From a virus, in the IMG/VR virus record IMGVR_UViG_3300025141_000432, positions 1 to 32,548 of that record: 32,548 nt of DNA. One strand, 5' to 3'. Made by a program: the position numbers and the translations under genes. Positions 1 through 32,378 of the stretch are shown in pieces. The notes below the pieces were generated by a model. That model saw only the letters and a list, made by a program, of their open reading frames with translations, had not been told where the DNA came from and made no database searches. The stretch's first letter is position 1; each line of letters begins with the position of its first letter.

Positions 1-138
1 CGATGGGTTGACTTGGTTGGCATTGTTCTCCGTCAAATACCTGGGACCGATGAAGTACAGATTGTTAGGTGGAACCACAGCTACCCTACCATGGGACACA
101 AAAAAAGAAATTTAGAGGTCGTAAGTGAAGGTCGGTGA
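1..138 (+). CDS. Array paralogue, 5'-truncated by window edge
   Basis: The reading frame is open from base 1 and ends with N-L-E-V-V-S-E-G-R then TGA, the array's standard C-terminus. The visible part has the family core (D-L-V-G-I-V-L near the start, V-R-W in the middle). The start codon lies outside the window. The last 14 nt are also the first codons of the next gene. Function unknown; an SH3-like fold is inferred. Confidence 0.75.
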   Translation, partial: RWVDLVGIVLRQIPGTDEVQIVRWNHSYPTMGHKKRNLEVVSEGR

Positions 139-304
139 CTTGGTAACAACAACAACATTCTCCCATGAAGGTAGGGATGAGTATATAGACCTTGGAATCG
201 TCGTTGAAAAACGTGGGTCACAAGTGTGGGTGCGGTGGGTTAGTGATAATCTTCTGCAATGGACTCCCAAGCAATATCTGGAGGTGGTCAGTGAAAGTCG
301 GTGA
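125..304 (+). CDS. Array paralogue (MKVGDLVTTTT), GTG start
   Basis: A 59-codon gene starting at GTG, with the Shine-Dalgarno in 'tagaggtc' inside the preceding gene. The protein reads M-K-V-G-D-L-V at the N-terminus, L-G-I-V-V-E then V-W-V-R-W in the middle, and Y-L-E-V-V-S-E-S-R at the end. It overlaps both neighbours by exactly 14 nt. Of all starts in the frame, only this one preserves the family N-terminus. Function unknown. Confidence 0.8.
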   Translation: MKVGDLVTTTTFSHEGRDEYIDLGIVVEKRGSQVWVRWVSDNLLQWTPKQYLEVVSESR

Positions 305-458
305 TTTGGTAAGAGATAGACGATGTGGAACTCTTTGTGTTGTCAAGGAGATGTACGACCCGGACTTGTGCCCTTATGCTGTCGTTTGGTCATTTTCAGG
401 AAATGAGGAAGTTGAAATAAATGCTTGGCATTTGGAGGTGATAAATGAAAGTCGATGA
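291..458 (+). CDS. Array paralogue (MKVGDLVRDRR), GTG start
   Basis: 55 residues. A longer frame is open upstream, but the GTG preceded by ggaggtg and coding for M-K-V-G-D-L-V is clearly the start. The middle carries G-T-L-C-V-V and A-V-V-W-S-F; the end is H-L-E-V-I-N-E-S-R. It has 14-nt overlaps on both sides, which points to translational coupling. Function unknown. Confidence 0.8.
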   Translation: MKVGDLVRDRRCGTLCVVKEMYDPDLCPYAVVWSFSGNEEVEINAWHLEVINESR

Positions 459-627
459 TTGGGTGCGGTTGAAGCACGTTCGACGCTATGGGATCGTGAT
501 TGAAGTAGACGGACGAGCAGTGCGCGTGTTATGGCAGGGCATGGCATGTGCAATGACTTGGACGCCGGAATGGGATCTGGTTGGAGGGGTTGAGGACGAA
601 CTAGTGAGTTTCAGAGGTAGTAAATGA
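445..627 (+). CDS. Array paralogue (MKVDDWVRLK), ATG start
   Basis: 60 residues with the variant N-terminus M-K-V-D-D-W-V and the family core Y-G-I-V-I-E then V-R-V-L-W. The Shine-Dalgarno is ttggaggtg, inside the previous gene's L-E-V codons. Unlike most members its C-terminus is G-S-K, and it joins the next gene through a 4-nt ATGA overlap, so it ends a run of 14-nt junctions. Function unknown. Confidence 0.8.
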   Translation: MKVDDWVRLKHVRRYGIVIEVDGRAVRVLWQGMACAMTWTPEWDLVGGVEDELVSFRGSK

Positions 628-830
628 ACATCGGTGATTTAGTGAAAATTGCAAGAGCATCCATCGGTGTTCCGAAAGGCAGCATCGGACTTATTGTGGG
701 CACGAGAATATCAAACCCCGATGCTAAGGGTGCAGCATATTTTATTCACGAGGTTCAAATGTGTGGAATGCCCAAACGTCAAGGTGGCAATCGGCAATAC
801 CTCGAAAGGGACTTGGAGCCTGTAAAGTGA
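624..830 (+). CDS. Array paralogue (MNIGDLVKIARAS), ATG start
   Basis: 68 residues. The N-terminus is M-N-I-G-D-L-V. The segment G-V-P-K-G-S-I-G-L-I-V closely matches G-A-P-K-G-S-I-G-L-I-T in the member at 1515-1709, so these two form a subgroup. The Shine-Dalgarno is agaggtag. The C-terminus is L-E-P-V-K and overlaps the next start by 4 nt (GTGA). Function unknown. Confidence 0.8.
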   Translation: MNIGDLVKIARASIGVPKGSIGLIVGTRISNPDAKGAAYFIHEVQMCGMPKRQGGNRQYLERDLEPVK

Positions 831-940
831 AAATGAAAATGAAAACAAGTGAAGTAATATTATTTATTTTATGTCTCGCACTAATGGGGATATCCATATA
901 TGGATTGTGTGTGTTCCCCTGTCATGGAGTGGGTTGGTAA
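827..940 (+). CDS. Small single-span membrane peptide
   Basis: 37 residues from a GTG that overlaps the preceding stop as GTGA. The sequence starts with basic M-K-M-K-M-K-T, continues as a hydrophobic stretch (about residues 10-30, V-I-L-F-I-L-C-L-A-L-M-G-I-S-I-Y) and ends C-V-F-P-C-H-G-V-G-W. It is unrelated to the array proteins around it. It could be a small inner-membrane peptide or an uncleaved signal anchor. It ends two bases before the next ATG. The frame, overlap and composition support a real gene; function unknown. Confidence 0.55.
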   Translation: MKMKMKTSEVILFILCLALMGISIYGLCVFPCHGVGW

Positions 941-941
941 A

Positions 942-1124
942 ATGAAAATCGGTGACTTGGTAAAACGAAAATGGGACAAGACTAGAGCCACAACAGGGCT
1001 TGTCGTCGGGTTCAAGGATTATCGTGGCAGCAACGCTGGTTGGGTTGTAGTGCTGTGGGCCAAGGGGTCAAATAATTATATGTACCACCCAGACAATCTG
1101 GAGGTTCTCAATGAAAGTCGGTGA
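942..1124 (+). CDS. Array paralogue (MKIGDLVKRKWDK), ATG start
   Basis: 60 residues. The frame is open further upstream, but that part runs through the membrane-peptide gene in another frame, so the ATG coding for M-K-I-G-D-L-V is chosen. The core reads T-G-L-V-V-G then W-V-V-V-L-W; the end is N-L-E-V-L-N-E-S-R. The last 14 nt start the next gene. Function unknown. Confidence 0.8.
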   Translation: MKIGDLVKRKWDKTRATTGLVVGFKDYRGSNAGWVVVLWAKGSNNYMYHPDNLEVLNESR

Positions 1125-1281
1125 TTTGGTAACAGTAGCTCCGGCGCGGCGTAGCACATATGTAATCATTGGACGATTAAGCCACGAGGGTGAACGGTTG
1201 TCTCTCTGGCTGCTCCACGATGGGGAAGTGTCCCTTCCGATGACACAGCGGTTTATGGAGATTATCAGTGAAAGCAACTAG
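1111..1281 (+). CDS. Array paralogue (MKVGDLVTVAPARR), ATG start
   Basis: 56 residues. The protein has M-K-V-G-D-L-V, then Y-V-I-I-G-R-L and L-S-L-W-L-L-H-D in place of the usual V-x-W core, and ends M-E-I-I-S-E-S-N. The C-terminus is altered from S-E-S-R because the next gene is the GIY-YIG nuclease, which starts gtgaaagcaactag; the 14-nt overlap is nevertheless kept. Function unknown. Confidence 0.75.
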   Translation: MKVGDLVTVAPARRSTYVIIGRLSHEGERLSLWLLHDGEVSLPMTQRFMEIISESN

Positions 1282-1528
1282 TTGGCACTTTTATGTTCTA
1301 CTCTGCTCGGACGGTTCTTATTATGCTGGCGTGACGACAGATATAGACAGAAGGCTACACGAGCATAACAACACCAAACGCGGTGCGAAATACACCAGAG
1401 CCAGAAGACCAGTTGAATTGATCATCTCAGAAAGATGCCAGACTCGTTCACTAGCTCAGAAAGCTGAGATGTATTTCAAGACGCTCACACGCAGGGAGAA
1501 AGAGGTTGTCATAAGTGAAAATCGGTGA
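1268..1528 (+). CDS. GIY-YIG domain endonuclease (UPF0213/YhbQ-like)
   Basis: 86 residues, GTG start. The sequence has the GIY-YIG signature Y-V-L-L-C-S-D-G-S-Y-Y-A-G-V-T-T-D-I-D-R-R-L-x-E-H-N in residues 9-34, followed by G-A-K-Y-T-R-A-R-R-P-V and a distal E in Q-K-A-E-M-Y-F-K, matching stand-alone single-domain members. The family makes nicks or breaks in DNA with a catalytic Arg and Glu. It sits inside the small-protein array with 14-nt overlaps on both sides, and its own ends copy the array junctions (GTGAAAG start; V-V-I-S-E-N-R end). It could be a domesticated nuclease or a selfish element using the array as a home. Confidence 0.85.
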   Translation: MKATSWHFYVLLCSDGSYYAGVTTDIDRRLHEHNNTKRGAKYTRARRPVELIISERCQTRSLAQKAEMYFKTLTRREKEVVISENR

Positions 1529-1709
1529 TTTGGTAATCACAAAACGTGACAGACTCGGAGCGCCCAAAGGTTCGATTGGCCTGATAACCAATATGCACCG
1601 GGTGAGATATGACAAGGTTCATTCTCTTTGTGAGATTTACTTGTGCGAAGGTGGGAGACAAATAAGAGTTACTGATGAAAATCTGGAGGTTATAAGTGAA
1701 AGTCGGTGA
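1515..1709 (+). CDS. Array paralogue (MKIGDLVITKRDRLG), GTG start
   Basis: 64 residues. M-K-I-G-D-L-V at the N-terminus, G-A-P-K-G-S-I-G-L-I-T in the middle (shared with the 624-830 gene), and N-L-E-V-I-S-E-S-R at the end. The Shine-Dalgarno agaggttg lies inside the GIY-YIG gene's last codons. The overlaps are 14 nt on both sides. Function unknown. Confidence 0.8.
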   Translation: MKIGDLVITKRDRLGAPKGSIGLITNMHRVRYDKVHSLCEIYLCEGGRQIRVTDENLEVISESR

Positions 1710-1926
1710 TTTAATCATCTGGAAAAAGAAGGATGGCTTTTACGGAAAAGCAAAGGGCGATATGGTTTTGGTTGTACAAGATATGCCGCCGCGACCTGAT
1801 GTCGATGTCAGATACGTAAAGCTCCTCCCCCTGAACCACAAAGTAGAATTTGCGTGTGATAACTTTGCTGTACCTAAAGACTTTTATAAAGTTTCAAGAA
1901 CAAAAGTAAAAATATGTAAAGCATAG
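1696..1926 (+). CDS. Array paralogue (MKVGDLIIWKKKDG), GTG start
   Basis: 76 residues, a longer member. The N-terminal M-K-V-G-D-L-I-I and G-D-M-V-L-V-V follow the family. The C-terminus departs from it: F-Y-K-V-S-R-T-K-V-K-I-C-K-A, basic and without the S-E-S-R junction. The next gene is not a paralogue and is separated by a short gap. Function unknown. Confidence 0.8.
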   Translation: MKVGDLIIWKKKDGFYGKAKGDMVLVVQDMPPRPDVDVRYVKLLPLNHKVEFACDNFAVPKDFYKVSRTKVKICKA

Positions 1927-1934
1927 GAGCTATG

Positions 1935-2159
1935 ATGAAAACAGAAAATTTATTGTTATCCAAAATGAAAAAAACATTTGACAAACATGATATAGAAATA
2001 GTAAAATTGAATGAGGAAGAGGAGACTATCTCTGTCGATGGAAAAAAAATAGAGCTATGGTGGATGCCACACTCCTCAGAACTAGCAGAAGATTTGGTTG
2101 AAGTGTTGATTGAAGATTGCAAAACAGAAATTAAAAAAACTTTGGCAGGTGACAAGTGA
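1935..2159 (+). CDS. Small acidic/lysine-rich protein, unknown
   Basis: 74 residues, not related to the array family. A Shine-Dalgarno aggagct precedes two adjacent ATG codons; the second (1935) has the better spacing. The protein is charged: M-K-T-E-N-L-L-L-S-K-M-K-K-T-F near the start, V-K-L-N-E-E-E-E-T-I-S in the middle, and a probable C-terminal helix with D-L-V-E-V-L-I-E-D-C-K. Its stop overlaps the next start by 4 nt. No function recognised. Confidence 0.65.
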   Translation: MKTENLLLSKMKKTFDKHDIEIVKLNEEEETISVDGKKIELWWMPHSSELAEDLVEVLIEDCKTEIKKTLAGDK

Positions 2160-2329
2160 AAGAAGGCGATAAAGTAAAGTTTACTCTATGTGACAAAGAG
2201 TATACTGGTTCAATTTTAAAAATCCATAGAAAAGAAGGTTGGAAAGGGTATGTCAATGTCATGCTAGAAGACAAAGACAAGATTGAAATACCAGCAACCT
2301 ACTTGGAGGTTATCAGTGAAAGTCGGTGA
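2156..2329 (+). CDS. Array paralogue (MKEGDKVKFTLCD), GTG start
   Basis: 57 residues. A divergent N-terminus (M-K-E-G-D-K-V-K-F) keeps the G-D-x-V pattern, and the C-terminus has the full Y-L-E-V-I-S-E-S-R. The middle has Y-T-G-S-I-L-K-I and V-N-V-M-L-E. It overlaps the upstream gene by 4 nt and the downstream one by 14 nt. Function unknown. Confidence 0.75.
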   Translation: MKEGDKVKFTLCDKEYTGSILKIHRKEGWKGYVNVMLEDKDKIEIPATYLEVISESR

Positions 2330-2510
2330 CTTGGTAAGGCACAATCGCCCCACTACTCGCGATGAGAACAAGGTATTCTTAGTCTTGGAAGTATCTGACC
2401 GAGGACTAGAATCTCCAAACTGGTGGGCGCGATTAGAGGGTGATTGGAAGGGGGCCATGGCTGGATGGTCTTCTACTAGAGACTTGGAGTTGGTAAGTGA
2501 AAGTCGGTGA
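2316..2510 (+). CDS. Array paralogue (MKVGDLVRHNRPTT), GTG start
   Basis: 64 residues. GTG start preceded by ttggaggtta. The core reads K-V-F-L-V-L-E-V then W-W-A-R-L; the end is D-L-E-L-V-S-E-S-R. It is rich in Trp (four residues), in keeping with a compact beta fold. There are 14-nt overlaps on both sides. Function unknown. Confidence 0.8.
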   Translation: MKVGDLVRHNRPTTRDENKVFLVLEVSDRGLESPNWWARLEGDWKGAMAGWSSTRDLELVSESR

Positions 2511-2685
2511 TTTAGTGCGCTTTGTCAGAGGAAACTTGGCCAAGTTTCCAGGAAACTTGGATAGGGTGTGTGGTGTTGTAATGAAGGACGCACACCCAGA
2601 CCAAACAGGCATACGCGTGATGTTCCCTGATTGCCCTAGAGTCATCCATCGTGATTTTTTGGAGGTCATCAGTGAAAGTCGGTGA
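2497..2685 (+). CDS. Array paralogue (MKVGDLVRFVRGN), GTG start
   Basis: 62 residues, M-K-V-G-D-L-V at the start and F-L-E-V-I-S-E-S-R at the end, with C-G-V-V-M-K and I-R-V-M-F in the core. Residues 12-22 (G-N-L-A-K-F-P-G-N-L-D) are encoded by a perfect 20-bp palindrome plus a third half-site, see 2530-2560. There are 14-nt overlaps on both sides. Function unknown. Confidence 0.8.
   Translation: MKVGDLVRFVRGNLAKFPGNLDRVCGVVMKDAHPDQTGIRVMFPDCPRVIHRDFLEVISESR
2530..2560. repeat. 20-bp perfect palindrome plus third direct half-site
   Basis: GGAAACTTGG at 2530-2539 is followed directly by its reverse complement CCAAGTTTCC at 2540-2549, and GGAAACTTGG recurs at 2551-2560 after one base. The element lies inside a coding sequence. 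It could be an operator for a dimeric protein or a compact hairpin; the sequence alone does not decide. Confidence 0.8.
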
Positions 2686-2842
2686 CTTGGTAAAAGATAA
2701 GCTATGGGGAGAGTTGGGCATAGTAGTATGTGTGCCTCCAAAGCCATCTATGATAGAAGTTTTCTGGTCTGGAGAAAACCCCAGAAGACAAAAGCATCTC
2801 TTGGGAGATTTAGAAGTGTTGGACAAAAAGGTTGACACCTAG
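2672..2842 (+). CDS. Array paralogue (MKVGDLVKDKLWG), GTG start
   Basis: 56 residues; GTG start preceded by ttggaggtc. The core is L-G-I-V-V-C-V then I-E-V-F-W-S-G; the C-terminus is D-L-E-V-L-D-K-K-V-D-T, without S-E-S-R. It ends a run of coupled genes: a promoter-like sequence and a tRNA fragment follow. The -35 box of that promoter overlaps its last codons. Function unknown. Confidence 0.8.
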   Translation: MKVGDLVKDKLWGELGIVVCVPPKPSMIEVFWSGENPRRQKHLLGDLEVLDKKVDT

Positions 2843-2860
2843 CGCCAGATGGAGTAGAAT
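2832..2860 (+). promoter_or_regulatory. Near-consensus sigma70 promoter before the tRNA fragment
   Basis: TTGACA at 2832-2837, a 17-nt spacer and TAGAAT at 2855-2860. The expected transcription start is near 2867, about 13 nt upstream of the tRNA-like 5' end. It would drive the tRNA-like RNA and possibly the genes from 3002 onward. Confidence 0.6.
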
Positions 2861-2879
2861 TGTCTCAAATGAAGTTACC

Positions 2880-2911
2880 CCGCTCGTAGCTCAGTTGGAT
2901 AGAGCAACGGC
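2880..2911 (+). pseudogene. 5' half of a tRNA gene (tRNA-Arg-like), 3' half missing
   Basis: The segment holds a possible acceptor 5' strand (ccgctcg), T8-A9, a D-arm with paired gctc/gagc around cagttggata, and the 5' anticodon-stem strand acggc, all with canonical spacing. It resembles the 5' half of bacterial tRNA-Arg genes. After 2911 neither the matching 3' anticodon strand nor a T-arm (ggttcgaatcc type) appears before the next gene. It is therefore a truncated tRNA, a recombination or attachment relic, or a tRNA-derived small RNA. The tRNA-Arg identity is a recollection-based guess; the half structure is visible. Confidence 0.6.
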
Positions 2912-3001
2912 AATTGAGAACAAGGAGTGAGGCGATATTACAGAGTTGGTTGGAGAATAGAATGAAAACAACTATTTACTGTAGTTATTAGGAGAACTAA
3001 A

Positions 3002-3211
3002 ATGAAAATCACAAAAACACAACTTAAGCAGATTGTTAAAGAAGAGTTGGAGACTGTTTTAAACGATCCTCGTACTGACGAACTCAAAGCCGCTTTAGAA
3101 GTATCGTATAATACAAACCTCGATCCACAAGAAGCAGCGGCTGATATATTAACAGTGGTTGAGGAGTTCCTGTCTGCCAAGCTCGGTATGCCCATAGAAT
3201 TGAGATATTAG
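3002..3211 (+). CDS. Small protein with MKITKTQLKQIVKEEL N-terminus, unknown
   Basis: 69 residues with a good Shine-Dalgarno (ttaggagaac). The N-terminal basic/amphipathic helix M-K-I-T-K-T-Q-L-K-Q-I-V-K-E-E-L is of a kind I recall at the N-termini of many unrelated marine-phage proteins. The rest is a predicted alpha-helical domain (V-V-E-E-F-L-S-A-K-L-G). It is not an array paralogue although it lies among them. It may be a virion-targeted protein (compare the tag in the 5326-11527 group), but nothing in the rest identifies a function. Confidence 0.7.
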   Translation: MKITKTQLKQIVKEELETVLNDPRTDELKAALEVSYNTNLDPQEAAADILTVVEEFLSAKLGMPIELRY

Positions 3212-3223
3212 AACAGAGGCTAA

Positions 3224-3394
3224 ATGAAAGTCGGTGACTTGGTGAAACATAAAGGGCAACCACAGTTAGGCGTGGTCCTAAAGCTGGAAGGCCCACTAAA
3301 ACAACGGGTGGTCTTTGCATGGCTTCATCGCTTGGAACCTGGCATGACCTGGACACACATCGCAAACCTGGAGGTGGTCAGTGAAAGTCGGTGA
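3224..3394 (+). CDS. Array paralogue (MKVGDLVKHKGQP), ATG start
   Basis: 56 residues: M-K-V-G-D-L-V, then L-G-V-V-L-K-L and V-V-F-A-W-L, ending N-L-E-V-V-S-E-S-R. It resumes the array after the promoter/tRNA-fragment gap. The start is preceded by agaggctaa. It has a 14-nt overlap with the next gene. Function unknown. Confidence 0.8.
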   Translation: MKVGDLVKHKGQPQLGVVLKLEGPLKQRVVFAWLHRLEPGMTWTHIANLEVVSESR

Positions 3395-3590
3395 TTTGAT
3401 ACAGCTATCAGCATATGGTAAAAAACTAGAATACTATAAGACCACTGCAATCTGGCCTGATGGCGTGGGGGTACTAGTCAAAGTTAGTCCCCCCCACTAC
3501 ACTGCACTTTGGAAAGGTGGGAGATTGAAAGAGAGCCACATCCGCAAAGATATTAAGTTGGTAAAAACCAAAAAGGAAAATCAAAAATGA
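3381..3590 (+). CDS. Array paralogue (MKVGDLIQLSAYGK), GTG start
   Basis: 69 residues. M-K-V-G-D-L-I at the start, G-V-G-V-L-V-K-V and Y-T-A-L-W-K-G in the core, and a basic C-terminus ending K-T-K-K-E-N-Q-K in place of S-E-S-R. Start preceded by ctggaggtg. It joins the next gene by a 4-nt ATGA overlap. Function unknown. Confidence 0.8.
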   Translation: MKVGDLIQLSAYGKKLEYYKTTAIWPDGVGVLVKVSPPHYTALWKGGRLKESHIRKDIKLVKTKKENQK

Positions 3591-3781
3591 AAACTGGCGA
3601 CGTCGTAGAGGTGATGGAAAGTAAAAACTTCTTTCGTTCTCGACCAAAAACACAAGGTGTGATAATAGAAGAAGATATGCACAACAATCCTTGGGTAGAT
3701 AACTGGTTCAAGTGGCACAAAGTAAAAATAGAAAAAGAAATTATTGTCGTGCAAGAAAATAAGTTGAGATTAAAAAAATGA
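3587..3781 (+). CDS. Array paralogue (MKTGDVVEVMESK), ATG start
   Basis: 64 residues, a divergent member with M-K-T-G-D-V-V, a core T-Q-G-V-I-I-E-E then W-F-K-W-H-K-V-K-I, and a basic end N-K-L-R-L-K-K. It overlaps both neighbours by 4 nt, leading directly into the nuclease-like gene. Function unknown. Confidence 0.7.
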   Translation: MKTGDVVEVMESKNFFRSRPKTQGVIIEEDMHNNPWVDNWFKWHKVKIEKEIIVVQENKLRLKK

Positions 3782-4278
3782 TAAACACAGAAATCAAACT
3801 TAATGAAGTCGAACAAAACATATGCAAAGCTATAGCCAAATTGCGTTTCAACAACAACAGAAAAAGCAATGTTAAAAATAGCAAAATAGGAAAGCAAAGC
3901 AACCGATTTACAGACCTTGAAGGATTCGGGGCAGAGTTTGCATTTTGTAAATTACACAACGTCTTTCCAGACTTTTCCATACAACCAAGATCAGCGCAGG
4001 ACGATCAAGGCGATGCCCTCTTGCCAACTGGGCAAAGCGTCGATGTTAAAACCACAAAATACCCAACGGGAAAACTATTAGCAGTGCCATGGAAAAAGGA
4101 TAACGTGGACCTATACGCTTTAATGGTTGGCCAATTTCCCACATATATATTTAAAGGTTTTATGATACAAGATGAGCTTCTAAAAGAAGAAAGAATCGGA
4201 TCCTTGGGATATGGTGAAACCTACATCGCTCGACAATCCGAGCTTTTAGAATTGGAGTCCATTAATGCAGGTGGGTGA
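3778..4278 (+). CDS. PD-(D/E)XK-like nuclease, predicted
   Basis: 166 residues. The middle has G-F-G-A-E-F-A-F (acidic residue on a helix), then G-D-A-L-L-P-T-G-Q-S-V-D-V-K-T-T, giving the E...D-x-K arrangement of PD-(D/E)XK nucleases. I recall similar proteins in other marine phages, usually annotated as hypothetical. It sits in the small-protein array, with a 4-nt overlap upstream and the array's exact 14-nt overlap downstream. Possible roles are host-DNA degradation or recombination; the substrate is not deducible. A resolvase-like or restriction-like fold is an alternative. Confidence 0.6.
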   Translation: MINTEIKLNEVEQNICKAIAKLRFNNNRKSNVKNSKIGKQSNRFTDLEGFGAEFAFCKLHNVFPDFSIQPRSAQDDQGDALLPTGQSVDVKTTKYPTGKLLAVPWKKDNVDLYALMVGQFPTYIFKGFMIQDELLKEERIGSLGYGETYIARQSELLELESINAGG

Positions 4279-4474
4279 CTTAGTAAAATACAGATTAGAG
4301 CCGCATTGTATGGGGATTGTTACCAAAATGTGGGATGAAAGCAAGCATAGGGCGCGGGAGACACTATATAGTGTAATATGGTTCTCAAAGACAGAGAGAA
4401 AGATCAGCGAACCATATCTAAATAAAAAAGGAGACTTAAATCTTGTTTCAAGTAGGCGACCTAGTAAAATATAA
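4265..4474 (+). CDS. Array paralogue (MQVGDLVKYRLEP), ATG start
   Basis: 69 residues beginning M-Q-V-G-D-L-V-K-Y, with M-G-I-V-T-K-M and Y-S-V-I-W-F in the core, and ending L-V-S-S-R-R-P-S-K-I, a variant of the L-E-V-S-E-S-R end. It overlaps the nuclease gene by 14 nt and the last array gene by 32 nt. Function unknown. Confidence 0.75.
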   Translation: MQVGDLVKYRLEPHCMGIVTKMWDESKHRARETLYSVIWFSKTERKISEPYLNKKGDLNLVSSRRPSKI

Positions 4475-4646
4475 TATTAAAAATAAATGGTACGGAGTTA
4501 GGACCACAAATCTAAAAAAAGAAGGGCTTGGTGTGATTACAGAAATAGTTAAAGCTGGAAATGGATCCACGATTCATGTACACTGGAATGATGGCGACAA
4601 GAATATTTACCTTGAAGAAGAATTAGTGTCTCCAATCACCAGTTAA
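4443..4646 (+). CDS. Last array paralogue (MFQVGDLVKYNIK), TTG start
   Basis: 67 residues. TTG start preceded by aggagacttaaatc. The N-terminus M-F-Q-V-G-D-L-V-K-Y resembles the preceding gene, suggesting a recent duplication. The core is G-L-G-V-I-T-E-I then I-H-V-H-W-N-D-G; it ends E-L-V-S-P-I-T-S. It is the last + strand gene: its stop is 4 nt from the stop of the first - strand gene. Function unknown. Confidence 0.75.
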   Translation: MFQVGDLVKYNIKNKWYGVRTTNLKKEGLGVITEIVKAGNGSTIHVHWNDGDKNIYLEEELVSPITS

Positions 4647-6839: not shown

Positions 6840-9203
6840 TTAATTACATGCTGTCTCGTCAAGGATTTCCATGAGGCTATTGTACAGCACAGAAGGATCA
6901 ACCGCTAGTGGGAACCACTTGCCACCACTAACCACGGTCATTGGTTCCCACGAACTCTTGATAACAAAATTCGGTGGAGTGAAGGAGTACATCCTAAAAT
7001 CATCTGCTGTCACAAACATGCTGGACAAATCAGCCGTAGTGACCTTGGGAATCAGGAAAGACATGCCAGCTTCATCAGAGAACAAAATGATCACATGATG
7101 TGCATTTGGCCTCCAATTGACAACAAATTTGTCGACCTGTGGTTCGGAGAAAATCTGTACTGAGTTCCAAAGGTCATCCCACACAAAGTCAGACACGTTG
7201 TATGGAGCAGATGGAGTCAGGTTGTATAACGCAAGATAAATTGCATCAAACAACATCTCAGCACCAGTCTGGCTAGCCTCCACTAAAGGCTTAAGCCCCG
7301 CAAAAGCGCTTATGAAGTCCGAGAATGGACTCAAGTTTTTATATAAGTACAAGAACTCATCATAATTAAAGCAATCGTTGTTTAAGTCAAACACCGCACA
7401 GTGATCTGCTGACATCGGACCTGTAACAATGCCCCATTGAATGACCTTTTCATCACTATAATAATTTGCAAACATGCCCAAAGCATCCAGCACAGCTTTG
7501 ATCTCAAGATTCATGGAGCCAGAGGAATCAACAATAAAGAGAATATCTGTATCCTCCATCTCTTTGCCGTCATCGATGATACCGTCACAATCGCCATCAA
7601 TGCCATCACAACTATCTTTAGCTTTGGGTAACTGCTGATCCTTGCAGAAGCCAGGAATAAAAGTAGCTGGAGTTATTTGATTGCCTTTGCTGTGCCCCCA
7701 CGATCCCTTATAACAAACAGCTTCTCCTGCATGACATATACCAACGTCCAATGTTTCTTCTGGGCCTGTGTAACACTCTTTATAAAGATATTCATCCACC
7801 TTGCTATCACAATCATCATCCCAATTGTTGCAAACCTCTTCTACCGGTTCTCCGACAACCTTCATACAATCCGGATCGTTTAAACCCAAAGCCCAACAGT
7901 GGCTAGTACACTCTGTAACCGCAGACTTGATACACTCCTCTTTGCCTGTCCAATTAAGTTTGGTTTCGACACAAACGCAAGTCTTATACCCGGATCCACA
8001 GATAAGAGGTTTCTCACTACATGGCAACATTATTCCAAAGAAAGCACACTGGCAGTCCAATCCCTCATCAACTTGCCCGTCACAGTCATTGTCCAAACCA
8101 TCACAGATTTCTTCTGTCGGTTGCAGCGCAGTACAAGTCCACTCCCCGTTTAAACAAAAAGAAAGGTTCTCTTCACACTCTGTTTCACATATATCAACCA
8201 AGTCTTCGTCAATGTCTCCATTGCAATTATTATCGACGCCATCACATATTTCTACAGGCACAAAACCACACTCATCACACGCATTGGTTTGCCCCTCGTC
8301 AATTTCGCCATCACAATCATTGTCAATGTAATCACAGATTTCTTCTAAAGGATCTGGAGCATTGCAGACTTCAACGCCAGCAATACAAAGCTGTGGTCCT
8401 ACACCACACTCGTTTTCACATTCCCATTCTCCTTCGTCAACAATTCCATCACAATCGTCATCAATATTGTTGCAGATCTCATCTTGTGGGCTAGAACCAA
8501 CACATTGCATCTTGCCGTCTATACAAACCAAGTCACCAATGCCACACTCAGCCTCGCAGAGACCGCCCTCTATATCTTCATCTGTGTCGCCGTCACAGTC
8601 ATCATCTAAAGAGTTGCACAACTCATCACGAGGTGTCTTGCCCATACAAACAAGCTCTGCATTTGTACAAATTAATTCACCAACACCACAATCATCTTCG
8701 CACTCCAAAGGATCAATGTCTTCATCAACCTTTTCGTCGCAATCATTATCTATTCCATCGCATATCTCTGGTATACACGGCACACATGCGTCTGAAACAA
8801 ACTCACCCTTCTCACACCAAGTATCTTTGAAGCCAGCCGTACCATTCTCATCTTCACACGGCTCTTTGCTGACTGCCTTATCAACAGGATTACATTCAAA
8901 CTTCTCTTGACATTCACCTATCTCGATGATTTCAGGTGGGTCCACACAAATGTTTTTAATAACTGGCACCTGCCAGATGGCATCCAAAGGTGGGCAAAAG
9001 AACCACTCCTCCACTAAACAATCTTCTGGAATTTTATCCACGATATCTTCGCCAACGTCGTTGACAACCACATCTGTTAAATCTACAATGTCAATATAAT
9101 CTTTTGCATCTGGAAGGCTATAGCCGCCGCCAGGGGCCGTAGTTTCGCTACAGGAGAGAGTGAAGAGGAAGGAAATTAGTAGAATAATATTGTTATTTTT
9201 CAT
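6840..9203 (-). CDS. Lipoprotein with MopE-like acidic repeats and a C-terminal VWA domain
   Basis: About 787 residues. From ATG 9203 the N-terminus is a classic lipoprotein signal (K-N-N-N-I-I-L-L-I-S-F-L-F-T-L-S-C), with Cys18 in an L-x-S-C lipobox; a GTG at 9215 is an alternative. The middle has eight repeats of the E-x-C-D-x-x-D-N-D-C-D-G-x-x-D-E-x type, the Cys-rich putative metal-binding motif found in secreted and surface proteins of Myxococcota-like bacteria. The C-terminal VWA domain begins D-I-L-F-I-V-D-S-S-G-S-M, an intact MIDAS D-x-S-x-S. It is probably anchored in a host membrane and may bind ligands or Ca/Mg. Its presence here is odd; possible roles are altering the host surface, superinfection exclusion, or unexpressed cargo of host origin. 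It has its own promoter. Confidence 0.8.
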   Translation of the reverse strand: MKNNNIILLISFLFTLSCSETTAPGGGYSLPDAKDYIDIVDLTDVVVNDVGEDIVDKIPEDCLVEEWFFCPPLDAIWQVPVIKNICVDPPEIIEIGECQEKFECNPVDKAVSKEPCEDENGTAGFKDTWCEKGEFVSDACVPCIPEICDGIDNDCDEKVDEDIDPLECEDDCGVGELICTNAELVCMGKTPRDELCNSLDDDCDGDTDEDIEGGLCEAECGIGDLVCIDGKMQCVGSSPQDEICNNIDDDCDGIVDEGEWECENECGVGPQLCIAGVEVCNAPDPLEEICDYIDNDCDGEIDEGQTNACDECGFVPVEICDGVDNNCNGDIDEDLVDICETECEENLSFCLNGEWTCTALQPTEEICDGLDNDCDGQVDEGLDCQCAFFGIMLPCSEKPLICGSGYKTCVCVETKLNWTGKEECIKSAVTECTSHCWALGLNDPDCMKVVGEPVEEVCNNWDDDCDSKVDEYLYKECYTGPEETLDVGICHAGEAVCYKGSWGHSKGNQITPATFIPGFCKDQQLPKAKDSCDGIDGDCDGIIDDGKEMEDTDILFIVDSSGSMNLEIKAVLDALGMFANYYSDEKVIQWGIVTGPMSADHCAVFDLNNDCFNYDEFLYLYKNLSPFSDFISAFAGLKPLVEASQTGAEMLFDAIYLALYNLTPSAPYNVSDFVWDDLWNSVQIFSEPQVDKFVVNWRPNAHHVIILFSDEAGMSFLIPKVTTADLSSMFVTADDFRMYSFTPPNFVIKSSWEPMTVVSGGKWFPLAVDPSVLYNSLMEILDETACN

Positions 9204-9231
9204 ATTTTGGCTCACTTGTTGTTATATTATA

Positions 9232-9487: not shown

Positions 9488-10755
9488 GCTCCATGTTCCC
9501 TAAGCACGTTCATGATTCCTTTATAAATCATTTCTTGCAACGTTGTTTTTGATCGATTCTTCCTGTACCAACTTTGTCCTGCGCGAGCCTTGGTGGCATA
9601 AGACGCGCCAGAACGTTTAGTTTCTATGTCAGGCATACCCGTACTTGGATTGACCCACTTGTCAACGTCTGGTGATCCAGAAGCTTCAATACGTGGGAGA
9701 ATGATATCACCAAACCCGCCCCTATTACCTCTGTGGTATGTTATTAGTGCATAATCCTCTATGTTTGACGGAGTTACATTATAAGGAGCTAGCCCCCTAC
9801 GCACTCTATCCTCATTGACCCTAGCCATTCTTTTTGCAGCATATTCTTTTTTCTCAGCTAACTTTTTTGCTGCGGCGTATATGCTAGACTCAGGATCAAA
9901 GGGTGACTTGCTTAAACGTTCATAATCAGCTTCATACCCAGGGGGTGGTGCTTTTCGTATTGCTTTCTCAAAAGACAACGGATGGCCTGGGGGTCGAACT
10001 CTTTTTGGTTTTCCTTTTCTGAGCACATTCGCATTGTACTTGTCGATGGCTTCTGTCGAGAGTATCTGCATCAAGCCAACTGCACCGGCATGACTCACAG
10101 CATCTGGATTTCCGCCACTTTCAACACGTGCAAGGCCACGCAAAAAATCTGGGTCTAGACCAAAAGCTTTACCCCACTTATCAAAGTGTTGATCATATTT
10201 TTCCAAACGCTTTGCATGTCTTGCGGTACCGCTTTCCCATCTGTCAATTCTTTTATCAACCTCTGGCTTGCTACGATCATAATTTTTAAAGTAATCAGTG
10301 CTTGGTTCGGGTGTCTCCGGTAATTCTTCGACCTCTTTTTCGTATGTTGGTGGCGGCTCAATTTCAGGCTCTGGGGTGTCACCGTGTACTGCGCCCAATA
10401 TCGCTTCTAACTCGGCCTGATCTTCCTGCGGAACAAGTGTACCCGGCACTGTCGCAGGTTCAGGGGTCTCAGGTTGCCATGGGGCATTAATCGACTCTGA
10501 ATCTAACTGTGTGGAATCATCAATGAATTCGATCCGGTCCCCCGATCCTCCCGGTTGGTATTGCACACGTTCTAACTCACCAATATCAAACTCTCCAACT
10601 GGTGGAAGCTCCAACGCTCTTACTTCGACTCCTGGAAGCAAATTTGGCGCTCTAAGATATGCATGACCTGGAGGCACCCACAGTACCTCCTTGCCAGTTT
10701 CTGGATCATAAGTTTCTTTTAAATATTTTCTCCAGCCTTTAAAATATTTTTCCAT
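9484..10755 (-). CDS. Virion-type lytic transglycosylase (SLT domain) with N-terminal capsid-tag-like peptide
   Basis: 423 residues. The N-terminus M-E-K-Y-F-K-G-W-R-K-Y-L-K-E has the same F-x-x-W-R-x-Y-L-x-E pattern as the kinase-like and NUDIX proteins. A long Pro/Glu-rich linker follows (about 80-160). The SLT domain has D-F-L-R-G-L-A-R-V-E-S-G-G-N-P near 203-216, with E212 as catalytic glutamate, followed by A-V-G-L-M-Q-I. It cleaves the glycan strands of peptidoglycan. The tag and linker suggest a virion-associated enzyme acting at infection or maturation, not a free endolysin. It is translationally coupled to the downstream membrane protein. Confidence 0.8.
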   Translation of the reverse strand: MEKYFKGWRKYLKETYDPETGKEVLWVPPGHAYLRAPNLLPGVEVRALELPPVGEFDIGELERVQYQPGGSGDRIEFIDDSTQLDSESINAPWQPETPEPATVPGTLVPQEDQAELEAILGAVHGDTPEPEIEPPPTYEKEVEELPETPEPSTDYFKNYDRSKPEVDKRIDRWESGTARHAKRLEKYDQHFDKWGKAFGLDPDFLRGLARVESGGNPDAVSHAGAVGLMQILSTEAIDKYNANVLRKGKPKRVRPPGHPLSFEKAIRKAPPPGYEADYERLSKSPFDPESSIYAAAKKLAEKKEYAAKRMARVNEDRVRRGLAPYNVTPSNIEDYALITYHRGNRGGFGDIILPRIEASGSPDVDKWVNPSTGMPDIETKRSGASYATKARAGQSWYRKNRSKTTLQEMIYKGIMNVLREHGA

Positions 10756-15584: not shown

Positions 15585-17156
15585 CTACTGTTCGATGATG
15601 GCATGATCAGTAGTAATTAGTACTGATGAGGCAGAAGCAGCATTAATTAACGCATTTTTGGTTACTTTTACTGGATCAATAATACCCGCTTCAAACATAT
15701 CAACAATATCATTGCGAACAAAATCATAGCCGTAGTTTTTGTGAGTCTGGTTTTCAACCAAGTCTAACATCATATCCATAGATCTGCCGGCGTTCTTAGC
15801 CATCTGTCTGATAGGCTCTTTAACGGAATTCACAACTATATCAACACCCAATTTCTGATCTTCACTATCAGTCTCTACCACCAGATCTTTAATCGCACGA
15901 ATCAAGGCAACACCGCCACCTGGGACTATACCCTCTTCCTGTGCAGACTTGACTGCCTCCAAGGCATCTTCAATTCTATGTTTTCTCTCAATCATCTCAA
16001 CCTCAGTAACCCCCCCAACATAAATAACCGCTACACCACTAGCCAACCTCGTGATTCTCTCTTGAATCTTCTCACACTCATATAAAGAATCGGTCTGGAG
16101 TATTAACTCCTTCAAGGATTCAATTTTCTCCTCTATCTTTTCATGATCACCCTTTCCACCAACAATGGTGGTGAAGTTTTTTAGAGATTCGATTGTTTTT
16201 GCTGTACCCAAATTTGGTAGTTTGACGTCTTTCATCCTCATTCCAGATTCTCTCGAAACAAAAGTTGCCCCAACCGACAGGGCCAAATCCTCCAATATAT
16301 TCCTTCTTTCTTCTCCATATCTTGGAGCTTTAATCGCGGCCACTTTCATTGTGCCACGCATGGCATTCATTATCATTGCCGCCAGAGCTTGCCCCTCAAC
16401 ATTCTCCGCAACAACAATAAGGGGTCGGTTTTCTCTAGCCACAACTTCCAGTACTGGCAGGATATCCTCGACAGTCTCAATCAAGTGATCCGTCACAAGT
16501 ATGTAAGGATTGTCATACTTTAAGGATCCTCTGCGTTCGTCTGTAACAAACGCTGTCGCCAAGTAACCAGAATCAAACCTAAAGCCTTCCATGACGTCTA
16601 GGCTGGTCTCAATTGAACGTGCCTCTTCGATGCTAATCGCACCATCCTTGCCGACCTTATCTACTGCCATGGCGATCAGATCACCGATAGTTTTGTCGTT
16701 GTTTGCTGAAATAGTTGCAATATGTGCGATATCTTCTGCAGAGCTAATTGGCCTAGACTGTTCATTTAAATTCTTAACAATCTCACCAACAGCCTTGTCA
16801 ATCCCTCTCTTGAGTTCAATGGAAGATGCGCCAGCTGTCAAATATTTTTGTGAGTTTTCTAGAATGGAGCGAGCAATTACAGTAGCAGTGGTTGTGCCAT
16901 CCCCAGCAACTTGGTTTGTTTGCGAAGAAGCTTGCTTGATTATTTGTGCCCCAGCGTTTTCAAATGGATCTTCGAATTCAACAAACCTAGCTACAGTCAC
17001 CCCGTCTTTGGTAATAAAAGGGTTTTTCCCCTTCTGGTGGATTATGACATTTCTTCCACGCGGTCCCAGTGTAGACGCTACATTATCAGCCAAAACACCA
17101 ACACCCCTAAGAATTTTCTCTCTTAAAGAACGACCATCATCATACTCACGTGACAT
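15585..17156 (-). CDS. groEL: GroEL-type chaperonin
   Basis: 523 residues. It has the GroEL ATPase signature G-D-G-T-T-T (about 85-90, D86 equivalent to E. coli D87) and the conserved region around E. coli D398 (H-R-I-E-D-A-L-E-A-V-K-S-A-Q-E-E-G-I-V-P-G-G-G). It lacks the GGM-rich C-terminal tail. GroEL folds proteins inside a closed ring, usually capped by GroES. No groES is adjacent; a GroES/gp31-like candidate is at 30199-30495. Phages such as EL use their own GroEL for capsid folding. It has its own promoter. Confidence 0.95.
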   Translation of the reverse strand: MSREYDDGRSLREKILRGVGVLADNVASTLGPRGRNVIIHQKGKNPFITKDGVTVARFVEFEDPFENAGAQIIKQASSQTNQVAGDGTTTATVIARSILENSQKYLTAGASSIELKRGIDKAVGEIVKNLNEQSRPISSAEDIAHIATISANNDKTIGDLIAMAVDKVGKDGAISIEEARSIETSLDVMEGFRFDSGYLATAFVTDERRGSLKYDNPYILVTDHLIETVEDILPVLEVVARENRPLIVVAENVEGQALAAMIMNAMRGTMKVAAIKAPRYGEERRNILEDLALSVGATFVSRESGMRMKDVKLPNLGTAKTIESLKNFTTIVGGKGDHEKIEEKIESLKELILQTDSLYECEKIQERITRLASGVAVIYVGGVTEVEMIERKHRIEDALEAVKSAQEEGIVPGGGVALIRAIKDLVVETDSEDQKLGVDIVVNSVKEPIRQMAKNAGRSMDMMLDLVENQTHKNYGYDFVRNDIVDMFEAGIIDPVKVTKNALINAASASSVLITTDHAIIEQ

Positions 17157-22430: not shown

Positions 22431-22780
22431 ATATCTGTTAGTTCCTCCTCCAATATATCGAATATGTTTTCTACCTCTTCTTCCGATAAAGCGAATTTGT
22501 CTTTGTTTTCCAAACCTTTGTTAAAAAGTTTTTTTGAATCTGCCAATCTCTTCTTACCATGTTTGCTAAACTCTTTCGCCAACTTGTCTATAAACGGCCT
22601 GAAAAGCTCGTCTTTTTCCAAATATCCGGTAACTACGCCCTTGAAAAAATCTGTTTGGGTCAAACCATCATAGTGCAAACGTATTTTCAAATCCGCATGT
22701 CTCTTTTCAGTATCTAAAAATATAACCCTTTTTGTCTCGTCCACGTTATTTTCTCTGTAATATGTGTGTGTTACTCTCAC
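22427..22780 (-). CDS. Hypothetical protein coupled to the sigma-like gene
   Basis: 117 residues from GTG 22780, overlapping the IMPDH-like stop by 35 nt; the start is uncertain and has no clear Shine-Dalgarno. The sequence has an R-L-H-Y-D-G-L-T-Q-T-D-F-F-K-G-V-V-T-G-Y region and a charged helical C-terminus (E-E-E-V-E-N-I-F-D-I-L-E-E-E-L). The ATGA overlap with the sigma-like gene suggests a shared role, perhaps in transcription. Function unknown. Confidence 0.55.
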   Translation of the reverse strand: MRVTHTYYRENNVDETKRVIFLDTEKRHADLKIRLHYDGLTQTDFFKGVVTGYLEKDELFRPFIDKLAKEFSKHGKKRLADSKKLFNKGLENKDKFALSEEEVENIFDILEEELTDI

Positions 22781-23753
22781 TTTGGCCAGCCGAAGTTTGC
22801 TTGATGAAACCACGATTAAACCAAAGCTCTTGTATATTTCTAGACCCACTATAAGAAAATCCGCTTTGAATATTTCCAACCATATCAAGCAATATTTGCT
22901 TAACAGACCCCTTGTAAGGTATGGTTGTAGATATGCCCTCTGGTGCTGACGTCTTCCCTCGCCAATCTTTTTGTGCATTAGAAGACGCCATCCCGCGATA
23001 AACTTTATATTTCTTTTTATTGTTAGTAAAAACTTCCCCAGGTGACTCATCAGTACCAGCTAATATTGAACCAACCATAACAAAGTCTGCACCTGCTGCT
23101 AAAGCCTTAACGATGTCTCCATTGGTGCGGATACCACCATCAGCAATCAATTTTGCATCCCTGTCGGATTTGGCGCAATCTAATATTGATTGAAATGTCG
23201 GCACGCCATGGCCAGTTTGAATTCTCGTGGAACAGATGGAACCACCTCCAATGCCCACTCTGATACTATCAGCACCCCAATCTGCCAAATCGTTAAACCC
23301 CTCAAGCGTTGCAACGTTTCCGGCCATGATGTGGATATCAGGGTCTAACGTTTCCCTCAAAGCTTTTAAAGCGCTCTTCATGAGTATGTGGTGCCCATGG
23401 GCCACGTCAATACAAATGACATTGACACCCGCCTTTACAAGAGCATCGGCTCTTTCCAAAAAATCTCCCGATGCGCCAACAGCAGCACCCACATTTTGTA
23501 TACAGACAGAAGACGCCAGGGACACCTGCTCGTCAATTGTATTGTATCTGTGGATAATCCCAAGCCCACCGTTTAAGCTCATTTCAAGCGCCATTGCAGT
23601 CTCAGTAACAGTGTCCATAGGACTCGAAACAACTGGAAGCGCTAACCTCACTCGCTCAGAAAGATCGTTGCCAATATCAATTACCCCCCGCCTTTCAACA
23701 TCCGAACGTTTGGGCACCAACAACACATCATCAAAACTCAATGCTTCTCTCAT
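22746..23753 (-). CDS. IMP dehydrogenase/GMP reductase family enzyme without CBS domains
   Basis: 335 residues. It has the TIM-barrel pattern: [17 protein letters not shown], and the catalytic loop [12 protein letters not shown] with the active-site Cys. The C-terminal flap has Y-R-G-M-A-S-S-N and ends [11 protein letters not shown], closer to IMPDH (T-S-A-G-x-x-E-S) than GMPR. There are no CBS domains, as in some short IMPDHs and in GMPR. It would raise guanine nucleotide supply. The loop reads G-G-G-S, not G-P-G-S. It overlaps the Zn-ribbon gene by 4 nt. Confidence 0.8.
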
Positions 23754-30506: not shown

Positions 30507-32378
30507 TTATTTTATTTCGCAGACTCCACCAGCACATGCTAGTTCGCCCTGCAAATTTGTGTCGTCTTCCACTTCTATGACTTTTGTCAAATCCACTTTT
30601 GTCAAAGTATCAAGTGATGCTTCGTATGTCTCTTTTGAGCAATTCTCAAAAGGAGCTTGAACATATGTCCCACCATCGTATGGCAAAACAGAAAGCCCAT
30701 TGTAAATTGTTCTGTTTTCCCACATCCACTCTCCGACGTCATTCCACTCAGCCTCTTTGACCGATATTGTCGCGGAGACATTGTGAGTATTCTGTCCCTT
30801 TCTATGCCCAGGTTTAACCCATTCCTGACTCACCGAGGCTACCCTCTTAAGAAGCTGGAGAGCGCTCTCAGTCCTCATTATGGCGCTCTCAGGGGCCTTT
30901 TGAGGCACAGAAATGACCGCTGTATCATAAGGTCGAAAATACTCGTCTTCCACTAGTTCTGGATGATTGACCAACAAGTGGTGATAAATTGCTTCGTTTT
31001 TACCAACCCTAACCCTTCTGATGTAATAATCATTATGCCATGCATGAATGCCACTTGAAGTGCCCAAGGTTAAAGATGTTGTTCCAGCCGGCTTGACTGT
31101 AGTGCATCTAGCTGCTGGCTTAATTCCGATTATCTCCGCCACTCTAGTATTTTCTTCTTTGACGACGTTGGCTGCAGCCTTAGCATCCAACTTCAATACA
31201 TTGCCAGAGGCAATCCCCGTCATACTAACGCCTATCAAAGCATCTTTTTCAGTGGTCCTTGTCCAAATGTCCCTAAGATAGTGGAAATCTGTGTATCCAG
31301 CTTGCAGCGTGCCAACAAAAGCAGCTGTCTTAACTCTAGTTTCCAACTCTTCTTGTGTTTCCACATCACTCACATTAACTTCGGTAAGATTACAGAACTG
31401 ATAAGGTCTCAGGGCAATTTCGCAACAAGGATTCGTACCCCAATCCTTATCGTTTGAAAAATAAAAACCCGGCTCACCTGCACCAGAAGCTTTAATTCTT
31501 TCCCACAAGTCTAAAAAGAATTCTTTCGTCACTCTATGTCTCAATAAAACGACAGAATTATTAGCTCGACCTCTCTGGGGGTTTTTCTCCCACCAATTAC
31601 CAGCCTTTGCTGCAATCATCTCGTCATCATCCGCACTAAACAGAGATATCAAAGCTGCGCGCCTAATACCACCAGCCAGAACAGCATCAGCTATATGGCA
31701 AACCATATCGTGAACTTGCACGGGGCGTAGTTTGTCGCCGGTATCCATATCCTCCAAGATACCCTCTAGTTTAACCAGACATTCTTTAAGAGGCTGTGGC
31801 CCCGGAGCTTTGCCTCCAGAAGTAACCAACCTAGACCCCTTTGGGCGAATATCTGAATAATCAAATCTAAGTTTAGAACCACCAAAGAAATAGGTACGGA
31901 ATAAAGCTCTAATAGCGTCTGCCCAACCTTCAATTGAATCGTTGACCAAGAACCTCCTGCTCCTCTTCTTGTTTGGTTTTTGTATTTCTGGCAATCCCTC
32001 AACATGATGGAACTGCACACTATAACCCACGCCGGTGCCCCCTAAGAGCAAAAACATCAACTCAGAAAATGAACGCCAATCATCAATGGGTAAATAAGCA
32101 CAATTATAAATTCGGTTTGGTGCAACCTCAATGGGTTTACCACCAAACTGCATTGACCGCATAGAAGGCAAAATCTTTTTGTCTAAAACAAATTCATAAG
32201 CATCTTCTATATCATTTTTTAAAAATGGGTACTTCTTGATGTGCATCTTTTTATTTCTTGTAACAATCTCTTTCCAACTTTCACGGCGTTGCTTTTCTAA
32301 AAGGTATCGTGCATATTTCATGTGTACGGTAATATCTGACAATATGTCTTTTGCTATATCGGCTTTATTTTTCTGCAT
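30507..32378 (-). CDS. Class II (adenosylcobalamin-dependent) ribonucleotide reductase
   Basis: 623 residues, Shine-Dalgarno ggagggcagg. It has N-C-A-Y-L-P-I-D-D (first redox Cys region), G-G-T-G-V-G-Y-S-V-Q, N-P-C-C-E-I-A-L-R-P-Y-Q-F-C-N-L-T-E-V-N with the thiyl-radical Cys, P-A-G-T-T-S-L-T-L-G-T-S-S-G-I, and C-terminal C-A-G-G-V-C-E-I-K redox cysteines. It resembles monomeric B12-dependent ribonucleoside-triphosphate reductases, shorter than the Lactobacillus enzyme. It converts NTPs to dNTPs for phage DNA. Host B12 is needed. No NrdB/NrdD partner is in the window. Confidence 0.88.
   Translation of the reverse strand: MQKNKADIAKDILSDITVHMKYARYLLEKQRRESWKEIVTRNKKMHIKKYPFLKNDIEDAYEFVLDKKILPSMRSMQFGGKPIEVAPNRIYNCAYLPIDDWRSFSELMFLLLGGTGVGYSVQFHHVEGLPEIQKPNKKRSRRFLVNDSIEGWADAIRALFRTYFFGGSKLRFDYSDIRPKGSRLVTSGGKAPGPQPLKECLVKLEGILEDMDTGDKLRPVQVHDMVCHIADAVLAGGIRRAALISLFSADDDEMIAAKAGNWWEKNPQRGRANNSVVLLRHRVTKEFFLDLWERIKASGAGEPGFYFSNDKDWGTNPCCEIALRPYQFCNLTEVNVSDVETQEELETRVKTAAFVGTLQAGYTDFHYLRDIWTRTTEKDALIGVSMTGIASGNVLKLDAKAAANVVKEENTRVAEIIGIKPAARCTTVKPAGTTSLTLGTSSGIHAWHNDYYIRRVRVGKNEAIYHHLLVNHPELVEDEYFRPYDTAVISVPQKAPESAIMRTESALQLLKRVASVSQEWVKPGHRKGQNTHNVSATISVKEAEWNDVGEWMWENRTIYNGLSVLPYDGGTYVQAPFENCSKETYEASLDTLTKVDLTKVIEVEDDTNLQGELACAGGVCEIK

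Follow-up and report, generated by a model that had tools for sequence, protein, structure and literature searches.

A dual-coding 14-nucleotide junction in arrays of small-protein genes from marine phages, and its probable use as a boundary for gene shuffling

The IMG/VR virus record IMGVR_UViG_3300025141_000432, a linear sequence of 32,548 bases that was analysed whole (hereafter the window), carries at positions 1-4646 an array of small paralogous genes in which the end of one gene and the start of the next are repeatedly written in the same 14 nucleotides (nt). We conclude that this junction is a dual-coding boundary and that general recombination probably uses it to shuffle small-protein genes, which stay translatable. 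Comparison with related arrays shows that the genes behave as modules: whole genes have been gained, lost and re-ordered, with the change-over falling inside the junction stretch.

Gene borders in the array were set by translating every start, which yielded an overlap of exactly 14 nt at 12 adjacent gene pairs and bore out the count given in an earlier note on this DNA. That note had also called the junction exact, and this holds for its length but not for its letters, which form a constrained consensus rather than one sequence: the 14-mer GTGAAAGTCGGTGA is letter-perfect at six window junctions and other sites vary (ATG start, AAG, AAA-ATC, Q for K). With up to three mismatches allowed, the 14-mer has 15 matches in the window, 14 of them inside the array, whereas shuffled sequence gave 2.3 +/- 1.6 matches and reached 15 in none of 100 shuffles. 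The chain of paralogues that the note described is likewise partly interrupted. Four borders have a 4-nt overlap instead (445->624, 1932->2156, 3381->3587 and 3587->3778; genes are named by their first base), four are spaced without overlap (624->942, 1696->1932, 2672->3002 and 3002->3224), and a non-paralogue takes part in three of the 12, namely the GIY-YIG gene at 1268-1528, on both its sides, and the DUF5843 gene at 3778-4278. At two of these three the 14-nt length is kept and the letters differ, with a TAG stop within GTGAAAGCAACTAG at the 1268 junction and ATGCAGGTGGGTGA at the 4265 junction. The features of the array are as follows (aa, amino acids).

1-138, +: family gene, 3' part, cut by the left end of the window; in frame from base 1; ends NLEVVSEGR; 14-nt overlap with gene 125
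125-138, +: 14-nt junction 1, GTGAAGGTCGGTGA
125-304, +: family gene, 59 aa, C-terminus LEVVSESR
291-304, +: 14-nt junction 2, exact GTGAAAGTCGGTGA
291-458, +: family gene, 55 aa, C-terminus LEVINESR
445-458, +: 14-nt junction 3, ATGAAAGTCGATGA
445-627, +: family gene, 60 aa, without SESR tail, 4-nt overlap with the following gene
624-830, +: family gene, 68 aa, C-terminus DLEPVK, no overlap downstream
942-1124, +: family gene, 60 aa, C-terminus LEVLNESR
1111-1124, +: 14-nt junction 4, ATGAAAGTCGGTGA
1111-1281, +: family gene, 56 aa, C-terminus MEIISESN
1268-1281, +: 14-nt junction 5, leading into a non-paralogue, stop TAG, GTGAAAGCAACTAG
1268-1528, +: GIY-YIG gene, 86 aa, cargo flanked by two 14-nt junctions, C-terminus VISENR (Pfam PF01541, E 2.4e-17)
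1515-1528, +: 14-nt junction 6, GTGAAAATCGGTGA
1515-1709, +: family gene, 64 aa, C-terminus LEVISESR
1696-1709, +: 14-nt junction 7, exact GTGAAAGTCGGTGA
1696-1926, +: family gene, 76 aa, without SESR tail
2156-2329, +: family gene, 57 aa, C-terminus LEVISESR
2316-2329, +: 14-nt junction 8, exact GTGAAAGTCGGTGA
2316-2510, +: family gene, 64 aa, C-terminus LELVSESR
2497-2510, +: 14-nt junction 9, exact GTGAAAGTCGGTGA
2497-2685, +: family gene, 62 aa, C-terminus LEVISESR
2672-2685, +: 14-nt junction 10, exact GTGAAAGTCGGTGA
2672-2842, +: family gene, 56 aa, closes a run, C-terminus LEVLDKKVDT (LEVISESR in overlap-bearing relatives)
3224-3394, +: family gene, 56 aa, C-terminus LEVVSESR, predicted five-strand SH3/KOW barrel
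3381-3394, +: 14-nt junction 11, exact GTGAAAGTCGGTGA
3381-3590, +: family gene, 69 aa, without SESR tail, 4-nt overlap with the following gene
3587-3781, +: family-like gene, 64 aa, 4-nt overlap with the following gene
3778-4278, +: DUF5843 gene, 166 aa, non-paralogue upstream of junction 12 (PF19161, E 2.2e-8)
4265-4278, +: 14-nt junction 12, diverged letters ATGCAGGTGGGTGA, length and phase unchanged
4265-4474, +: family gene, 69 aa, N-terminus MQVGDLVKY
4443-4646, +: last family gene, 67 aa, C-terminus EELVSPITS (PHROG 18715, E 1.1e-8)

Further loci (L numbers below) were collected from IMG/VR by a pattern scan that returned 113 stretches, followed by two more patterns and a protein search. 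Around each start codon, from about -12 to +20 (position 0 being the codon's first base), the junction follows the consensus TTGGAGGTnnTcA[G/A]TGAAAGTCGGTGAYTTrGT. The upstream frame encodes an L-E-V strand, then an S-E-S-R tail and a TGA stop; the downstream frame encodes the start codon and MKVGDLV. GGAGGT lies at -11 to -6 and the stop codon at +11 to +13, which places the Shine-Dalgarno sequence of the next gene in the upstream Leu-Glu-Val codons, as had been proposed. Among 543 distinct overlap junctions the Glu codon of L-E-V is GAG in 449 and GAA in 7 (46% GAG in interiors), because the Shine-Dalgarno sequence requires it, and every one of the 543 has GGT as its Gly codon (29% in interiors), because the upstream TGA, TAG or TAA stop requires it. 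For Val3, GTC accounts for 405 of 468 codons (interiors, 23%), and the third base of the Val3 codon, at +8, is C or A, giving the upstream protein a final Arg, in 95% of overlaps versus 70% of non-overlap family starts. T or G at +8 (upstream Trp or Gly) is avoided in overlaps more than at free starts; the C-terminal Arg itself may be favoured, or the avoidance may be linked to termination.

At Val7, just beyond the overlap, codon choice is unconstrained, and the silent letters +17 and +20 are not conserved. Silent positions are thus constrained within the overlap but not immediately beyond it, and conservation of the junction reflects dual coding together with a ribosome site rather than any long invariant DNA site. 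Random pairs of junctions are 76% identical over -12 to +20 versus 28-29% in the flanks on either side; junction DNA is thus far better conserved than its flanks, contrary to one of the outcomes that the earlier note had named as refuting. Between homologous neighbours, change at third positions is 0.026 in the overlap and 0.21 just outside, in the expected direction, but the 13 pairs are too few to carry weight by themselves. Some junctions carry GGC or a similar Gly codon in place of GGT, which removes the stop, so that the upstream gene extends (SESRRRC, SESRRYGKN; L066 at 2019 and L098 at 2105, both on the minus strand, and others). Read-through of this kind is the probable source of the 17-, 23- and 29-nt overlaps. 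Judging from the layout, it is plausible that the array is read as operons, with starts used by initiating ribosomes, re-initiating (coupled) ribosomes or both.

The proposal that each gene is an exchangeable module receives strong support from changed neighbours, breakpoints at the junction and whole-module insertions and deletions. In 61 of 86 comparisons between modules 90-98% identical in DNA and located on different contigs, the neighbour across the 14-nt junction was unrelated, as it was in 156 of 177 at 80-90% identity; some of these comparisons depend on one another. Of 239 comparisons between modules at least 98% identical, 214 showed an unchanged neighbour, some of them perhaps from contigs of one sample or population. 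Averaged over pairs in which the left neighbour has changed, identity stays at background to -13 and jumps at -12. Where the right neighbour has changed, it is high through about +19 and at background by +25. High-identity alignments end within -30 to +40 of a junction in 55% of cases on the right and 66% on the left (20% expected if uniform), a clustering partly inflated by the conserved junction, which extends alignments; few ends fall inside modules.

Because junction conservation itself contributes to that clustering, the event-level test weighs more. In 21 locus pairs the flanking modules are homologous and the number or kind of modules between them differs, although a few pairs with a single module on each side may represent diverged homologues and not swaps. 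The best crossover falls between -12 and +24 relative to the start codon in 11 insertion or deletion cases, three of which narrow it to +1 to +17 or +6 to +14, in or just past the overlap. Such whole-module insertions and deletions are scarless. Gene 2672 has a different upstream neighbour in the window, in L257, in L025/L259 and in L070. The control at 4-nt borders gave three conserved and two different neighbours, too few cases for a comparison.

The S-E-S-R tail is a by-product of the start of the next gene, as the earlier note held: it is missing without the overlap, lost when no family gene follows and gained by unrelated genes. None of 42 family genes with a 4-nt overlap ends in E-S-R. 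Inspected E-S-R endings in the class of other borders overlap family-like starts that the first filter had missed, the sole exception being L101, with EGR by chance, and no SESR-ended paralogue lacking an overlapping family start was seen among them, contrary to the other refuting outcome named in the earlier note. About 80 other genes directly upstream of family starts share the same 14-nt overlap. Some are missed or longer-start family members and many are unrelated (GIY-YIG, membrane and zinc-ribbon proteins, ClpP in L050, a SWIM zinc finger in L045), and E-S-R or a close variant closes nearly all of those read to their end. The ClpP protease gene of L050 occupies 9993-10613 (PF00574, E 1.6e-85) and has its 14-nt overlap with the family gene downstream.

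The same note had counted L-E-V as part of the by-product, and this did not hold. L-E-V-V lies in the last predicted beta-strand (49-53), and L-E-V or a near form is kept in all relatives of gene 2672 with the end covered, overlap or not. Relatives of this gene (82-96% identical) without the overlap end in LEVLAEIK, LEMLSI, LEVLR or LEVLGIHEEEQSET, and the window copy in LEVLDKKVDT; those with the overlap end in LEALEVISESR or LEVISESR. At L-E-V, a predicted strand of the protein, the DNA limits the choice of codons. A conserved tail explained as a side effect of DNA layout is a caution against reading conserved termini as functional motifs.

The family proteins are 55-76 aa long and have little in common beyond MKVGDLV...G(I/V)V...W...LEV, with a mean column identity of 23%. 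An AlphaFold2 model (pLDDT 88) is a five-strand barrel whose top Foldseek matches are Spt5/NusG KOW domains, with a TM-score of 0.82 to archaeal Spt4/5 and a best E of 1.4e-3. We therefore predict KOW/SH3-like barrels. The likeness to KOW and NusG C-terminal SH3-like domains is one of predicted fold; the array proteins differ in standing alone and in lacking a significant sequence-profile match to KOW (best PDB profile E 0.055). Pfam KOWx_SPT5 was reached by 2 of 96 members (best E 1.8e-4), and Pfam and PHROG matches are weak. A ratio of non-synonymous to synonymous change (dN/dS) of 0.16 across 227 module pairs, with the corresponding proportions pN below pS in 223, argues that the modules are real genes under purifying selection. 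Clustering at 50% identity splits the 1,025 distinct proteins into 633 groups, 480 with a single member, revealing a large unnamed pool of phage accessory proteins. This payload is very diverse and probably consists of proteins acting on host machinery. Likeness of fold to NusG and HspQ suggests, as a guess, RNA polymerase, the ribosome or Lon as partners.

In the expanded IMG/VR set, 875 of 1,067 family neighbours no more than 60 nt apart (82%) overlap by exactly 14 nt, a prevalence biased upward because most loci were fetched through a junction match; 89 overlap by 4 nt and 16 by 1 nt. The opposite strand of the window encodes a DnaE polymerase, a ribonucleotide reductase and GroEL, and a relative of this DnaE (41-70% identity) occurs in all 25 searched carrier records of at least 100 kilobases (kb). 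The long carriers are therefore one broad uncultured marine phage lineage. Most long carrier records measure about 185-204 kb, and within each long genome the junctions are confined to one strand. Of 42 DnaE-bearing records chosen without regard to the junction, many being fragments, 13 have the motif. A scan of 84,980 bacterial and archaeal genomes gave matches in two contigs only, both from marine genome bins and probably binned phage. GenBank phages reach about 30% DnaE identity at best and gave no match to the paralogues. Exact junction matches of 19 nt in Kuttervirus Det7 and 17 nt in SF02 lie on the opposite strand of annotated genes and were rejected as chance. A search through a 309-aa neighbour protein for orthologous array sites returned distant relatives only.

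We hypothesize that junctions in direct repeat would serve as sites for general homologous or short-homology recombination, with exchange within and between co-infecting phages carried out by a phage RecA-like recombinase. An in-register crossover would leave both genes complete, stopped, supplied with a ribosome site and translationally linked, and selection would retain such products. A RecA-family gene is present in all 15 long array genomes; tyrosine recombinases, serine recombinases and ERF-type annealing proteins were each found in 0 of the 15, and a GIY-YIG protein in 4. The exact run common to unrelated junctions has a median of 10 nt and reaches at least 20 nt in 5.5% of pairs, at least 33 nt in 0.04% and at least 40 nt in 2 of 287,241. 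Given this recombinase survey and the short identity between junctions, general recombination or short-homology annealing is the most likely mechanism.

Several points weigh against this account, among them the upward bias in prevalence given above. The 10-nt median run is short for efficient RecA-type recombination, which leaves the enzyme step uncertain. No isolate phage with the junction was found, all arrays being metagenome assemblies, and for no module were two different right-hand neighbours each seen in two or more non-identical sequences. Beyond the mechanism, it is conceivable, though we regard it as doubtful, that the junction is kept as an evolvability device, through which a population-wide library of hundreds of KOW/SH3-like small proteins would be re-assorted into translationally linked operons, much as integron cassettes are, without an integrase or non-coding sites.

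Illegitimate recombination anywhere in the sequence, followed by selection under which joints at gene borders alone survive, would give the junction sequence no role. As cited in PMC3029335, most phage mosaicism is usually explained in this way, and the short exact homology between unrelated junctions agrees with it. Random joints should, however, yield many spacings, and other spacings do exist but are a minority among close family neighbours, most of which restore exactly 14 nt; single events moreover switch parents inside the shared stretch, in register. We consider this explanation improbable. A site-specific enzyme that recognises the junction and moves cassettes like an integron integrase is a poorer candidate still. 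The GIY-YIG protein of the array is one such candidate, its gene being flanked by junctions in the window and in L097 and standing upstream of a family gene in L119, but its presence in only 4 of the 15 long genomes, the lack of tyrosine and serine recombinases in all 15, and the unconserved silent letters +17 and +20, which leave no long fixed site, make such an enzyme very unlikely.

Assembly artefact, in which metagenome assemblers fused different viruses at a repeated junction, deserves attention since every sequence comes from a mixed-community assembly and no alternative order is backed by two non-identical sequences. The final k-mers of the usual assemblers are longer than the runs shared here. 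Chimeras at the junction are unlikely because long exact sharing is so rare and because the recombinant and many of its parental copies are 5-15% apart, as expected of old events and not of in-sample mixtures; the neighbours retained by modules at least 98% identical and the two contigs from genome bins of another collection also tell against them, and as a general explanation fusion is scarcely credible. Equally hard to credit is tandem duplication and divergence, with unequal crossing-over growing the array and dual coding alone holding the junction without any exchange, for although the proteins have a fold and N-terminus in common and dual coding does constrain the 14 nt, homology within a locus is limited to 8 of 900 directed links (four pairs) versus about 446 pairs between loci, non-family genes participate, and near-identical modules adjoin unrelated neighbours in other viruses, which refutes it as a full account.

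Outside the junctions, promoter-like sites are present in the window's array, overall not above chance, with a strong one covering 2832-2860, where gene 2672 ends (near-consensus and sigma-70-like, TTGACA-17-TAGAAT). The sequence after it, at about 2881-2911, resembles the 5' half of a transfer RNA (tRNA; GTAGCTCAGTTGGATAGAGC), but ARAGORN and Rfam reported no tRNA there, and Rfam gave no match at gathering scores. The window stretch between gene 2672 and about 2932 is an insertion or tRNA remnant, since L257 runs from the same module straight into the DNA that starts near 2932 in the window. Intact tRNA genes occur in array loci L024, L028, L034, L044, L049, L075, L079, L098 and L099, often tRNA-Arg tct and also Ile, Pro, Met, Leu and Lys; in L098 the end of a family gene merges into tRNA-like sequence (GGTAGCTCAGTCGGATAGAGC). 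On the minus strand of the window, 6840-9215 encodes a 791-aa protein with repeats of the Cu-binding MopE-type motif (PF11617), unusual in phage, and 15585-17156, 22746-23753 and 30507-32378 encode GroEL, IMP dehydrogenase/GMP reductase and ribonucleotide reductase (a B12-dependent insertion-domain match), respectively.

Several described systems resemble the array in part. In lambdoid phages, as cited in PMC3029335 and PMC4546147, short sequences shared at module borders allow homologous recombination to swap modules. The array likewise has a short conserved sequence at module borders with breakpoints within it, but its boundary lies inside coding sequence on both sides, recurs every ~170 nt in one genome and serves hundreds of modules of one family as well as unrelated cargo. 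Promoter early stem-loops (PeSLs) of T4-type phages are described, in PMC4503421 (citing Arbiol 2010 and Comeau 2014), as a promoter-terminator motif between small accessory genes that mediates their shuffling. A small repeat between small accessory genes and gene shuffling are common to both; the 12 window junctions differ in having no intergenic DNA, the repeat itself being stop, ribosome site and start in dual-coding form, and the window's 14-nt overlaps contain neither promoter-like nor terminator-like sites.

Start Associated Sequences (SAS) of cluster K mycobacteriophages are 13-bp repeats with a Shine-Dalgarno sequence, 11-19 per genome, that precede starts, often in gaps >50 bp, and sometimes contain the upstream stop codon (PMC3203893). 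Like SAS, the array junction places a Shine-Dalgarno repeat (GGAGGT) before genes of different families, cargo genes included. Unlike it, SAS have no common protein family and no gene exchange shown for them, and their fixed 13-bp 5'-GGGATAGGAGCCC is not matched by the junction consensus. Repeats with a 13-nt core are tied to module rearrangement in the Campylobacter group II phages CP21 and CP220 (~180 kb; PMC4546147), where long repeat blocks lie between large modules, in contrast to the single-gene modules with coding overlap seen here. Integron cassettes share with the array an open pool of small genes and one-at-a-time exchange; no integrase was found, tyrosine recombinases being absent from all 15 array genomes, and the junctions have no non-coding space for attC, although no search for attC-like elements was made. 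No paper was found with the MKVGDLV/VKVGDLV motif or the 14-mer. PeSLs and SAS are the nearest described repeats, and none was found described inside overlapping coding sequence joining an array of one protein family. Boundary sequences were proposed for phage module swaps decades ago but are not detectable at most mosaic borders (PMC3029335). The array boundary, by contrast, is unmistakable, stands at every gene, is wholly coding and accompanies many scarless single-gene exchanges, which makes the question of targeted versus random recombination testable.

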